DNA from: Geoglobus acetivorans
GTDB taxonomy: Archaea > Halobacteriota > Archaeoglobi > Archaeoglobales > Archaeoglobaceae
Assembly (NCBI RefSeq): GCF_000789255.1
Contig: NZ_CP009552.1
Span: 434,001 to 498,000, forward strand
Reading direction: 5' to 3'
Length of the DNA: 64,000 nt
Positions 23,756-28,324 of the stretch are shown here, in pieces (position 1 is the first letter of the stretch; each line of letters begins with the position of its first letter). Below the pieces are notes generated by a model. That model saw nothing but the letters and a program-made list of their open reading frames with translations. It searched no databases and was not told the origin of the DNA. Both the position numbers and the translations under genes were made by a program.

Positions 23756-24064
23756 ATGCGAGAGTACCGATTTAAAAGGGGTTTCAAGCCCACAGCAGAA
23801 AGGCTGGAGGAGATGATAATCAAGCATTTTGGCAGCTTCGAAAAGGACGGTGATGTTTACGTTGTCAGATACAAGGCTCTCGAAGAGCTTAGACTCTGGC
23901 TCGAAGGGAAAATCCTGAAGGCTGAGACCAGAACGAATCCAAATGTGGACAATGAGACCGCATTTGAAACCCTTAGAACCTACAACAGGTTCCTTGACGA
24001 GCTCACAGGATACACCGCAAAAGAAAGAAAAAAGCACATGATGAAGGATGTGGAGGGAAGTTAG
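23756..24064 (+). CDS. DUF5611 family protein
   Basis: A 102-residue archaeal protein recalled as DUF5611: YRFKRGFKPTAERLEEMI at the start and LEGKILKAETRTNPNVDNETA in the middle, ending in a basic helix. Function unknown. TATA element AAAATATATTA is centred 28 bases before the ATG, so the transcript is probably leaderless. It overlaps the YIP1 gene end-to-end by four bases. Confidence 0.75.
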   Translation: MREYRFKRGFKPTAERLEEMIIKHFGSFEKDGDVYVVRYKALEELRLWLEGKILKAETRTNPNVDNETAFETLRTYNRFLDELTGYTAKERKKHMMKDVEGS

Positions 24065-24705
24065 ACCGGCATGCTTCCAAGCTGTGTGAGGTTCTGGAGG
24101 TTCATTATCGAGTATACTGTGTATCCTAAGTAAAGGGCTGCCGGTATCGAGGCAGATATAATTGCTTTTTTGAGTTCTATTTTTCTAATCTTTGCAATTC
24201 CATTGCTCCATATTGCAATACTCCATACGAGCGTTGCCAGGTTGACGAACAATCCGCTGTAAATCAGGTTTTTGTTTGTGATTGCCATCAGAAATTCCTG
24301 CAGAGTTTCTGGAGATGCTGACTGCAGGAAGTAGTACTGTATTGCGAATTGAATTACTGATGCGATTGCCAGCGGGTAAAAACCGTAGGCTGTAACACCA
24401 ATGGTTTTGCCAAATTCGCCCTCTCCTCCAAAAAGGCTGGAGATCACGTGAATTATCCCGGCGATTACGACAAGCAGTATGAAAAGCACTATGAATGCTG
24501 AGATGAATCCGATCACCGGAGCAATTGCCAGCATGTTCTGCATCAACTCTGATCCGCTGAAAAGCGGTTTCATGTACGATGAGATCAGGTACTGGCTTAC
24601 TGCGCCGATCGTGGAAATTATGATAATTGGTGGGAGTGCAGCCCTTATCTTAGGCACACTCTCCTCTTCGAAAAACCTTCCGGGATTTGTTAGAGCTTTT
24701 ATCAT
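24061..24705 (-). CDS. YIP1 family membrane protein
   Basis: About 214 residues with five to six membrane spans. FFEEESVPKIRAALPPIIIIS begins the YIP1-type domain, which continues with GGEGEFGKTIGVTAYGFYPLAI. Role unknown. The open frame reads back to 24810 but would run across the H/ACA RNA hairpin. The ATG at 24705 is 26 bases from a TATA element (24726-24736), so the shorter protein is right. Confidence 0.8.
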   Translation of the reverse strand: MIKALTNPGRFFEEESVPKIRAALPPIIIISTIGAVSQYLISSYMKPLFSGSELMQNMLAIAPVIGFISAFIVLFILLVVIAGIIHVISSLFGGEGEFGKTIGVTAYGFYPLAIASVIQFAIQYYFLQSASPETLQEFLMAITNKNLIYSGLFVNLATLVWSIAIWSNGIAKIRKIELKKAIISASIPAALYLGYTVYSIMNLQNLTQLGSMPV

Positions 24706-24725
24706 AATACGAACAAAACATTGCG

Positions 24726-24736
24726 AAATATAAAAT
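24726..24736 (-). promoter_or_regulatory. TATA box for the YIP1 gene
   Basis: AAATTTTATAT on the minus strand is centred 26 bases before the ATG at 24705, giving a leaderless transcript. Confidence 0.55.
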
Positions 24737-24745
24737 TTGTGTTTT

Positions 24746-24802
24746 TGTGGGCCCTGGAGCCACGGAGCATCATGCTTCTCAGCCCCGTCGGGTTCCGGGC
24801 CC
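24746..24802 (-). ncRNA. H/ACA guide RNA candidate
   Basis: On the minus strand a 57-nt element folds as a single archaeal H/ACA hairpin. The lower stem is GGGCCC with GGGCCC. An internal loop follows, with AACCCGA on the 5' side and TGGCT on the 3' side. The upper stem is CGGGGC with GCTCCG. The apex is a K-loop with paired UGA...UGA for L7Ae, and ACA follows the lower stem directly. Base of the upper stem to ACA is 14 nt, the spacing needed for pseudouridylation. A TATA element lies about 26 bases upstream. The target uridine was not identified. Confidence 0.75.
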
Positions 24803-24822
24803 TGTTGCATTTATGCAGCGCT

Positions 24823-24833
24823 CCTTAATAAAG
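24823..24833 (-). promoter_or_regulatory. TATA box for the H/ACA RNA
   Basis: CTTTATTAAGG on the minus strand is centred about 26 bases before the first G of the guide-RNA hairpin, which supports independent transcription of the RNA. Confidence 0.55.
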
Positions 24834-24888: not shown

Positions 24889-26433
24889 GTGAGGTTGAAA
24901 CTCTCTTTTCGAAAAAAGGAAAAGGAAGAACCTGCCAGATCAGAAGCTGAGATGAGACTGGAAGAAGTCAAATCAGAAGAAGAGCCCGAATACGTTCTTG
25001 TAGAAGAATACTGGATAGATGAGCCTTTCTCCAAGATTCAAATAAGGTTCAATAAAGACACTCAGGAACATGTGTATTATGTTGTAGTTCCCAAGCTTGA
25101 TGGTTATCTGTTTTCCGTGTATTATGTTCTGAAAAATACTGTTGTGGAATACCTGGAAAGCGATGTGGAGCAGGTGGATGACAGAGTAAAGCATCTTGAA
25201 GAGATGTCGAGAAAGCTGCTGAAAGAACTTGGGATAGAAGTCGAGGAGGAAGATTTTCAGAAGATATTTTACCACCTCAAGTCCGACTTCATTGAATACG
25301 GCCCCATAACCCCCCTCATGAAGGACCGCCTGATAGAAGACATCTCCTGCAACGGCTACAACAAGCCCATATACATCTACCACCGCAACTACCAGAACAT
25401 CAGAACAAACCTCACCTTCAGAGAGGACGAGCTTGACATGTTCGTCATAAAGCTTGCCCAGATGTCGGGCAAGCACATAAGCATAGCCGAACCTCTCCTG
25501 GATGCATCCCTTCCAGACGGATCAAGAATCCAGATGACCTTGGCCAGGGAAGTCACGGACCACGGCTCCACATTCACCATAAGAAAGTTCAGAGAGGAAC
25601 CCGTAACTCCAGTGGATCTCATCGCCTGGGGAACCTTCAGCATAGAGCAGATGGCCTACCTCTGGCTCTGCATAGAGAACAAGAGGTCCCTCATCTTCGC
25701 AGGAGGAACTGCAAGCGGAAAAACCACGTCCATGAACGCCGTCTCAATCTTCATCCCGAGAAGCTCGAAGATAGTGACCATTGAGGACACGAGAGAGATA
25801 ATGCTCCCCCACGAGAACTGGATTCCCGCAGTCACAAGGGAAACAGGAAAGGTAGTGGACATGTACGATTTGCTGAGAGCAGCCTTGAGACAGAGACCCG
25901 AATACATAATAGTTGGAGAGGTCAGGGGAAAGGAGGCACTGACCCTCTTCCAGGCAATGTCCACCGGCCACACCACCTACTCAACCCTGCATGCCGACTC
26001 TGTCAACGGCGTCATCCACAGGCTTGAAAACCCGCCCATAAACGTCCCCAGAGCAATGATCGAAGCTTTGGACATAGTCAGCATACAGGCCCAGGTCTTC
26101 ATGGGCAAGAAGAGGGTGAGAAGAAACTTAGAGATAGCTGAAATCATAGGCGTTGACCCCCACACCAAGATCATGAGAACCACAACAGTCTTCACCTGGG
26201 ACTCAAGCAAGGACGAACACGTGATGGTCGGCAGTTCAAAGGCCCTTGAAGAACTCAGAATCATGAGGAACTGGTCGAGAAAGGAACTGGAACAGGAGCT
26301 TAAGAGAAGGGAAGCAGTCCTCAAATACATGCTCGACAAAAACATAAGAGACTTTAAGGAAGTCGCCAGAATAATTCAGACCTATCAGGTAGATCCGGAT
26401 AAGGTGGTGAGTGAATTTGGTATTCAGATCTGA
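24889..26433 (+). CDS. Type IV pilus/type II secretion ATPase (GspE/TadA family)
   Basis: A 514-residue secretion ATPase. FAGGTASGKTTSMNAV is Walker A, TIEDTREIMLPHENW the Asp box, IVGEVRGKEALTLFQAMSTGHTTYSTLHAD the Walker B and His box. An N-terminal domain with EYGPITPLMKDRLIEDISCNGYNKPIYIYHR precedes it. It would power assembly of an archaeal type IV pilus-like filament with the membrane platform that follows; no pilin lies in this window. Codon use changes sharply: from about 25265 to 26340 codons end mostly in C, while both ends are ordinary, suggesting conversion by a paralogue. Confidence 0.9.
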   Translation: MRLKLSFRKKEKEEPARSEAEMRLEEVKSEEEPEYVLVEEYWIDEPFSKIQIRFNKDTQEHVYYVVVPKLDGYLFSVYYVLKNTVVEYLESDVEQVDDRVKHLEEMSRKLLKELGIEVEEEDFQKIFYHLKSDFIEYGPITPLMKDRLIEDISCNGYNKPIYIYHRNYQNIRTNLTFREDELDMFVIKLAQMSGKHISIAEPLLDASLPDGSRIQMTLAREVTDHGSTFTIRKFREEPVTPVDLIAWGTFSIEQMAYLWLCIENKRSLIFAGGTASGKTTSMNAVSIFIPRSSKIVTIEDTREIMLPHENWIPAVTRETGKVVDMYDLLRAALRQRPEYIIVGEVRGKEALTLFQAMSTGHTTYSTLHADSVNGVIHRLENPPINVPRAMIEALDIVSIQAQVFMGKKRVRRNLEIAEIIGVDPHTKIMRTTTVFTWDSSKDEHVMVGSSKALEELRIMRNWSRKELEQELKRREAVLKYMLDKNIRDFKEVARIIQTYQVDPDKVVSEFGIQI

Positions 26434-28324
26434 GAATAGTTTTACCAAACTTGCGGACAAATTCTTTGGAGACCGGGCGAGAAGGAGACTTAGTGATTAC
26501 TATGACATGGGGCAGAAGCTTCAGCAGGCGATGATAAACATTCCGCCAGATGTGTATGTTGCGACTCAAATGCTGTTCTCGATTGCTCTGGCAGCGTTCG
26601 GCCTGATTCTCGGTGCAATCGTTGCGATAATCGTTTACTTCTTCGTTGAAATTCCAACATTTGACATATACTTTCCAGAACCTTTCCTGTCCTTCTGGCT
26701 GGCATACAGAAAGATATTCATAAGCCTGTTCCTTGCAGTGTTTCTCGGAGTTCTTTTCTTCATGATCGGGCAGTTCATCTTCGCCATCTATCCGGGATAC
26801 GTTGCCAGCGACAGGAAAAGCAAGATCGACAGACTCATGCCCAATGCGGTAATGTTCATGTACTCTCTAAGCTCGGGTGGCATGCCGCTCATTCAGATAT
26901 TCAAATCCATTGCGAGCTACGAGGATGTTTACAACGAGCTTGCAAAGGAATTCTCAAGGATCGTCCTGGAAATTGAGGAGCTCGGCCATGACCTTGTAAC
27001 AACTCTGACAAAGGCGGTTGAGCTGACGCCATCCAAAAATCTTGCTGACCTCCTTCAGGGTCTGATCACTATTATTGAGAGCGGAGGTGATTTTACCAGC
27101 TATTTCAGAGAGAGGTCTGACTACTATCTTGAAATGGCGAGACAGGATCAGAAAAGCTTTCTCGAATTCCTCAGCCTGATGGGTGAGAGCTACATAACTG
27201 CATTTGTAGCAGGACCGCTATTCTTGATCATCATCCAGACGGTTATGGCCGTCATGGGTGAAAGCGATGTTATGCTCCTTTATGCTGTTGTGTACATGAT
27301 AATACCCGTTGGAGCGTTCTTCTTTGCCTTTATAATAAAGCTCCTCACACCTGTGGAGGTGGGAAAGGCTCCGGTGATTCAGGAGAAGCATGTTCTCAGG
27401 AGAGAGATTGATGAGGACGTTATGAAGAAGTGGAACAGCTGGAAAATGAGAAAGAAGCTCAATCCAAAAGAGCTGTTTATTGAAAATCCTCCGGCTGTGT
27501 TTTTGATCTCCATCCCTCTCGCAGTGGCGTTTGCTCTGTTCGGCATAATGCAGTATACCTTTTCTCCAACCATTGACTGGTTCTTTCTGGTTGATGACAA
27601 CATCTTCATCTCGATTGTAATTGCTCTGCTCCCCTACGCTGTGGTTTATCAGATCAACAAAAGGAGAACCGGGATGGTTCTCAAATTCACGCCCGTTTTT
27701 CTGAACAGAATAGCCTCCATGAACGAAAGCGGTATGAATATCACAAGGGCGATAAGGACACTTGCAAAAACAGATACCACACCCTTGAGGAAGGAAATAG
27801 AGAAGATAAACAGGGATCTGGAGTGGAATATCAGCCTCGTTGATGCCCTGATCAGGTTTGCAAACAGACTCAGAACATTTGAACTCACGAGAACCACCAT
27901 TTTGCTTGTTGAGTCTCTGAGGAGTACACCAAATGTTACGGAGATCCTCAGAATTTCAGCAAAGGATGCGAGCAATGCCGAGCTTCTCAGGAGGGAGAGG
28001 ATAAAGAACATGTCGATGTACGTCATGATCATCTACATCAGTTTCTTCGTTTTCATTGGAATAGTGTACATCATCTCGACCACCTTCCTGTCCGTGCTTG
28101 CCGAGAGCACTTCAAAGGTGGCTGCGGCGGGAGGAGGATTCATGTCAATGGGGAGCATTGATGAGGAGTTTTACAAGGGAATCTTCATGCATGCGGCGGT
28201 TTTCCAGGGTCTGTTCGCCGGGCTGGTTGCCGGAGTGATGGGTGAGGGAGACTTCTCCTCTGGCGTCAAGCACTCACTGATCATGCTCATCTTTGCCTAC
28301 GTGCTTTTCACCGTCTTCATTTAA
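26411..28324 (+). CDS. Type II/IV secretion membrane platform, TadC-like, two T2SSF domains
   Basis: A 637-residue membrane protein with two T2SSF domains. The first has LMPNAVMFMYSLSSGGMPL around residue 140, the second FTPVFLNRIASMNESGMNI around 430. Groups of membrane spans flank them. It anchors the ATPase and guides pilin assembly. It overlaps the ATPase gene by 23 bases; GTG 26411 and TTG 26417 both fit the GGTGGTGA site. Its 3' end overlaps the convergent DMT transporter gene by 51 bases. Confidence 0.88.
   Translation: MNLVFRSENSFTKLADKFFGDRARRRLSDYYDMGQKLQQAMINIPPDVYVATQMLFSIALAAFGLILGAIVAIIVYFFVEIPTFDIYFPEPFLSFWLAYRKIFISLFLAVFLGVLFFMIGQFIFAIYPGYVASDRKSKIDRLMPNAVMFMYSLSSGGMPLIQIFKSIASYEDVYNELAKEFSRIVLEIEELGHDLVTTLTKAVELTPSKNLADLLQGLITIIESGGDFTSYFRERSDYYLEMARQDQKSFLEFLSLMGESYITAFVAGPLFLIIIQTVMAVMGESDVMLLYAVVYMIIPVGAFFFAFIIKLLTPVEVGKAPVIQEKHVLRREIDEDVMKKWNSWKMRKKLNPKELFIENPPAVFLISIPLAVAFALFGIMQYTFSPTIDWFFLVDDNIFISIVIALLPYAVVYQINKRRTGMVLKFTPVFLNRIASMNESGMNITRAIRTLAKTDTTPLRKEIEKINRDLEWNISLVDALIRFANRLRTFELTRTTILLVESLRSTPNVTEILRISAKDASNAELLRRERIKNMSMYVMIIYISFFVFIGIVYIISTTFLSVLAESTSKVAAAGGGFMSMGSIDEEFYKGIFMHAAVFQGLFAGLVAGVMGEGDFSSGVKHSLIMLIFAYVLFTVFI

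Follow-up and report, generated by a model that had tools for sequence, protein, structure and literature searches.

The window analysed here is a 64,000-nucleotide stretch of the genome of the heat-loving archaeon Geoglobus acetivorans (one contig, 1,860,815 bases). Within it, the 57 nucleotides from 24746 to 24802 on the minus strand raise a simple question: does this short sequence, lying just upstream of a gene for a YIP1-domain protein, belong to that gene, either as codons or as the leader of its mRNA, or is it a gene in its own right? A first-pass annotation had proposed the last of these, an H/ACA guide RNA with its own promoter. Judging from sequence comparison that proposal is right in substance, and the element is a real and ordinary archaeal H/ACA guide RNA gene. 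The best explanation as a whole is a free-standing gene for an archaeal H/ACA guide sRNA, with a predicted promoter of its own and with U913 of 16S rRNA as its predicted target; we put its probability at roughly 90%. The features of the locus, in window coordinates and with the evidence in brackets, are as follows.

24825..24832, minus strand: TATA-like box of the sRNA, TTTATTAA, at -30 to -23 from the first G (sequence; AT profile of 20 loci)
24746..24802, minus strand: putative H/ACA sRNA, a single hairpin of K-loop type (fold, Pab160 match, covariance model, covariation)
24795..24802, minus strand: 5′ arm of the lower stem, GGGCCCGG, GC (fold; helix 1, two-sided changes in 6 of 6 pairs in the structure-fitted alignment)
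24788..24794, minus strand: 5′ pocket strand AACCCGA, of which AACCCG pairs with 16S CGGUU with one C bulged and the last A pairs with U24762 (target scans)
24782..24787, minus strand: 5′ arm of the upper stem, CGGGGC (fold, covariation)
24769..24781, minus strand: K-loop UGA-GAAGCA-UGA-U, of the L7Ae-binding type (sequence; no variation in the GA and UGA columns across the 20 aligned sequences)
24763..24768, minus strand: 3′ arm of the upper stem, GCUCCG (fold, covariation)
24756..24762, minus strand: 3′ pocket strand U-GGCUCC, of which GGCUCC pairs with 16S GGAGCC (target scans, duplex energies)
24749..24757, minus strand: 3′ arm of the lower stem, CCAGGGCCC, with a bulged A; its CC is common to pocket and stem (fold)
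24746..24748, minus strand: ACA box (20 of 20 aligned sequences)
24727..24734, minus strand: TATA-like box of YIP1 itself, TTTATATT, at -29 to -22 of its ATG (sequence; AT-rich at a similar place in G002, G003 and G006, by eye)
24061..24705, minus strand: YIP1-domain protein from its likeliest start, 214 aa (Yip1 profile from residue 3; upstream stops in two congeners)

The element folds as an archaeal single-hairpin H/ACA sRNA, and every structural part that the first-pass annotation had ascribed to it lies where it had been placed. Read from 24802 to 24746, the order on the minus strand is GGGCCCGG, AACCCGA, CGGGGC, UGA GAAGCA UGA U, GCUCCG, U GGCUC, CAGGGCCC, ACA; the 3′ side after the upper stem runs U GGCUCC A GGGCCC ACA. 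Both the fold and the covariation described below show a hairpin in which an internal pocket separates a lower from an upper stem, and the lower stem is followed by ACA, a 3′ ANA box, in all of the aligned sequences. The UGA...UGAU loop on its short stem is one that we take to be of the K-loop type. It sits above a 6-bp stem plus an A-U closing pair, in keeping with the rule, given in a passage of PMC7991803, that an archaeal H/ACA RNA carries a K-turn or K-loop 5-6 nt above the pocket. The predicted fold is also stable: positions 24740-24806 reach -31.4 kcal/mol against a shuffle mean of -20.68 (sd 2.99; z -3.59), with 1 of 200 shuffles equal. Under the proposed mechanism the sRNA would be transcribed from its own promoter, L7Ae would bind the K-loop, Cbf5-Nop10-Gar1 would bind the stem and the ACA, and the pocket would hold 16S GGAGCC-U-G-CGGUU, leading to conversion of U913 to pseudouridine. 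A cbf5 gene is present in the genome (497.7 bits).

A DNA-level search of 40 genomes gave matches in eight, that of G. acetivorans included. In the congeners G002, G003 and G006 the match is centred on the element: it extends little beyond it in G003 and G006, and 18 bases past it in G002. A second DNA match in G023 (L011, 21 bases) is located in the flank upstream and was set aside, and the bare K-loop pattern, with 2772 matches across the genome, was uninformative. A covariance model (R1) was built from four same-genus sequences, including that of the window, and run against 197 genomes; 35 contained a match at E <= 0.1 and 23 at E <= 6e-5, counting the genome itself and the training genomes. 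Within the genus the element is present in five of seven genomes, the other two, G004 and G005, giving no match to the covariance model. Among named records, two Geoglobus sp., whose cores are identical to L005 and L006, and four Archaeoglobaceae MAGs have an RNA of this kind.

Covariation was assessed on 20 sequences. This set omits G001, the core of which is that of the window, and the near-identical G048 and G067; it retains L030 and L033, which are probable paralogues; and the R1 matches L039 and L041-L045 (E 0.001-0.1), which represent a second type of guide, were kept out of it. In the model-fitted alignment, which is biased towards its own structure, 98.4% of cells pair and two-sided changes affect 11 of 13 pairs (shuffle mean 6.6), values that none of 500 shuffles reached in either case; the count of pair types, matched by 44 of 500 shuffles, shows no clear excess. 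When the sequences were aligned with MAFFT, blind to structure, 95.0% of the cells of the upper stem pair (0 of 500 shuffles), as opposed to at most 53.5% when it is slid, and two-sided changes are found at five of its seven pairs (12 of 500 shuffles); its pair types are as high in 488 of 500 shuffles. Invariant throughout the 20 sequences are the ACA, the GA and UGA of the K-loop, and a G and a GC of the 3′ pocket strand. A lack of covariation in relatives had been named beforehand as grounds for rejecting the guide, and covariation was found. By its conservation and covariation the element is beyond what chance would be expected to produce, and the identification as an H/ACA guide draws on this covariation, on the kept K-loop and ACA, on a TATA position common to the loci and on a full-length, sub-threshold match to the Pab160 family.

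The first-pass annotation also placed a TATA element upstream, and the box listed above bears this out. In the mean profile of 20 loci the AT content is highest, 0.83-0.86, for windows that begin between -30 and -26; it is 0.57-0.62 on either side (at -42 to -36 and -22 to -14), and there are lower peaks of 0.78 at -52 and 0.74 at -10. The main peak is where an archaeal TATA box would be expected.

The longest YIP1 frame (24061-24810, minus strand, 249 aa) overlaps the element and, as had been pointed out, would hide it; if that frame were translated, the element would be coding sequence and the hairpin incidental. In G. acetivorans and G001 the reading frame continues open over 35 upstream codons, beginning with an ATG. 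In G003 and G006, however, a stop codon stands one codon before the YIP1 ATG; in G002 the open frame across the element lacks ATG, GTG and TTG, its sole ATG lying six codons upstream of that of YIP1, in the spacer; and in the short protein the match to the Yip1 profile starts at residue 3. We regard a coding role for the element as next to impossible. Given these stop codons in two congeners, together with the TATA-like sequence that YIP1 has of its own, YIP1 most likely starts at 24705 and not at 24810, and the first 35 codons of the long frame would be non-coding; the gene thereby becomes 35 codons shorter. A better rival, still very improbable, is that the element is the 5′ leader of the YIP1 mRNA, structured for instance as a K-loop through which bound L7Ae regulates YIP1: the element lies 35-42 bases upstream of YIP1 in all five of the genus genomes that bear it (seven were searched). 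Against a leader, the TATA-like box of YIP1 lies between the element and the YIP1 start codon, RNAs of this kind occur outside the genus with no YIP1 within ~1.5 kb, and the ACA and parts of the pocket, which a leader would not need, are kept. YIP1 neighbours the RNA (within ~1.5 kb) in only four of 21 loci tested, all from the same genus; since the adjacency is confined in this way, the RNA gene is not tied to YIP1.

In two points the first-pass annotation needs adjusting. Its count of 14 nt from pocket to ACA is right when the U adjoining the upper stem is included; should this U form a pair with the A facing it, the count starts at the first guide base and comes to 13. With the A-U pair closed the guide-to-ACA distance is 14 in the congeners L005-L007, so that G. 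acetivorans, at 13, is one shorter. The distance from upper stem to ACA in H/ACA RNAs is 14-15 nt (PMC4652768), and a passage of the same paper describes Pyrobaculum sR201/202 with 13 nt and structural compensation. The target register suggests a closed A-U pair, in which case the spacing would be 13. As a speculation, the AAA two bases past the ACA could serve as an alternative ANA box. The pocket strands themselves had been given as AACCCGA and TGGCT. In that exact register no rRNA site fits both strands fully, whereas AACCCG and GGCUCC, with the A-U pair closed, do find a site: it was by allowing this pair to close that 16S U913 emerged.

The target scan covered the U residues of the genome's own 16S and 23S rRNA in 16 registers. 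16S U913 came first with a score of 29.5, and 23S U1356, in a different register, was close behind at 29.0. Around U913 (GGAGCC-U-G-CGGUU) both pocket strands pair, GGCUCC with one side through six pairs and AACCCG with the other through four or five and a bulged C; the match is not unique. GGCUCC forms a perfect duplex (-10.4 kcal/mol). That of AACCCG, with a bulged C or one pair lost, reaches -2.9 kcal/mol against -4.2 for AACCG, a weakness due to the extra C in the Geoglobus 5′ pocket strand. The rRNA site matching both pocket strands that had been anticipated thus exists, though it needs a bulged C and is the top one among several candidates.

When all 20 guides were scored against 680 uridines, using the window genome's rRNA in every case, U913 had the highest mean (27.57, z 4.74). 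Nine of the 20 guides rank it first (L006 and L023 as a tie) and 17 place it in the top four; it is 7th for L028 and 24th for the probable paralogues L030 and L033. A search for 16S rRNA in 32 genomes yielded 20 loci, 19 of which carry the site as GGUGGAGCCUGCGGUUUAAUU; the exception, where no such site was found, is L065, a short record whose 16S portion as shown ends ahead of it. Provided that the element is a guide RNA, 16S U913, which presumably corresponds to about position 950 in E. coli, is its best-supported target and a likely one. We put it no more firmly because the register first proposed fits no site fully and because shuffled pockets equalled the score of the Geoglobus guide somewhere in the rRNA in 5 of 300 trials.

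A genuine H/ACA guide might also have another target, or a second one, either in a non-ribosomal RNA or at 23S U1816, where GGUGCC-U-G-CGGUUU resembles the 16S site. U1816 is the runner-up in mean score over the 20 guides (25.0, z 4.21), and the extra C, which is specific to Geoglobus, lowers the strength of the U913 duplex. The Geoglobus guide nonetheless scores 30.5 at U913 against 27.5 at U1816, and its 3′ pocket GGCUCC, perfect to the GGAGCC of U913, has a mismatch to the GGUGCC of U1816; a different or additional target is an unlikely option, with U913 preferred.

Among known families the closest is Pab160. The Rfam model (RF02796) aligns to the element over its full length with 32.3 bits (E 7e-4 in 251 bases searched), below the gathering cut-off of 47.4 bits. 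Run genome-wide, the same model gave no match to the element at E <= 10 and did not report the copies in the congeners either, and at the cut-off with strict filters it had no match in 60 genomes; 18 of the 20 genomes behind the aligned sequences were among these, and none of the 18 matched. A scan of the whole window at Rfam gathering thresholds reported a tRNA and nothing else, and routine scanning would therefore miss the element. Its description as unannotated agrees with that scan, and applies to Rfam rather than to the annotation deposited with the genome.

According to parts of the papers concerned, Pab160 is a functional homologue of Pf9 (PMC3726423) and Pf9 the orthologue of Pa160 (PMC4652768). 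Like Pab160 and Pf9 of Pyrococcus, the Geoglobus RNA is a single hairpin with an ACA, and its pockets, AACCCGA and UGGCUCC, compare with AAACCGC and UCGCUCC in the Pab160 consensus. It differs from Pab160 in the extra C of the 5′ pocket strand, in having G and not C opposite the residue that precedes the target, and in an apical part of smaller size (6 unshown positions, against 15, in the model alignment). We assume the Pf9 substrate to be the same 16S site, except that the U is preceded by G in place of C; this G would be complementary to the C of the Pf9 guide. The element is a Geoglobus relative of the Pab160/Pf9 RNAs of Pyrococcus, and perhaps their orthologue. A different H/ACA-like hairpin was seen in L012 and L013 (1501-1573, minus strand; G049 and G041, genus g10), which are weak Pab160 matches (30.0 and 22.7 bits); its pockets are CAGCCGC and UUCGCUCC, the 5′ pocket differing from that of the Geoglobus guide. 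Three further weak Pab160 matches (L014-L016) look like chance and were dropped.

Af4, Af46 and Af190 of Archaeoglobus fulgidus are RNAs of the same class, from related archaea, that guide rRNA pseudouridylation. The guide targets named for A. fulgidus in a passage of PMC4652768 are S1004, S1167, L2601 and L2639, with L1970 for Af4.3; the U913 site is absent from this validated list, if its numbering is close to that used here. The element would add a guide gene for a position in 16S rRNA to which that passage assigns none of the validated sRNAs of Archaeoglobus. In its fold the RNA is like class 10/5/9 (PMC4652768), with a ten-layer upper stem (the A-U pair, six pairs, U-U and two G-A) and a 5-nt 3′ guide, and unlike it in having 13 and not 14-15 nt from guide start to ACA. 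Among the papers listed on Pab160, Pf9, Archaeoglobus H/ACA RNAs and Geoglobus, no title or opening of an abstract describes the RNA of the window, and in this weak sense it is undescribed. The analysis yields a set of 20 covarying sequences and a directly testable prediction, pseudouridine at 16S U913; the understanding of how H/ACA RNPs work is unchanged.

Some of the related loci differ in the pocket. G016 holds, besides a likely orthologue (L087, 1501-1558, minus strand), a copy (L033, 1501-1560, minus strand) in which the 3′ pocket reads GGCAC for GGCUC; G042 likewise has a changed copy (L030, 1501-1560, minus strand) plus a second match. The best-scoring rRNA site for the changed pocket, in the numbering and rRNA of the window genome, is 23S U1847. 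Such copies of the scaffold hint at duplication and re-aiming of guides. It is conceivable, if rather doubtful, that the guide is part of a diversifying Archaeoglobaceae family whose scaffold is duplicated and re-aimed, and that the Geoglobus guides, with their extra C, are a step in this and serve U913 and U1816 together.

A second conserved H/ACA-like guide (GCTCCGCC...CGGGTGAGAAGCATGATCCCGGGTCGGTT... and variants) occurs in several Archaeoglobaceae genomes and in one or two more distant ones, represented among the loci examined by L039, L041-L045, L072-L074, L078, L088 and L091. We take this second type (L039, L041-L045, L072) to be Af46-like; model R2 found no match to it in the window's genome at E <= 1.

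At 24889-28324 the plus strand of the window carries, in divergent orientation, a gene whose 514-aa product is a T2SSE-type ATPase, PilB3-like at its C-terminus. The gene is followed by a 637-aa open reading frame with many hydrophobic stretches, perhaps the membrane partner of the ATPase.
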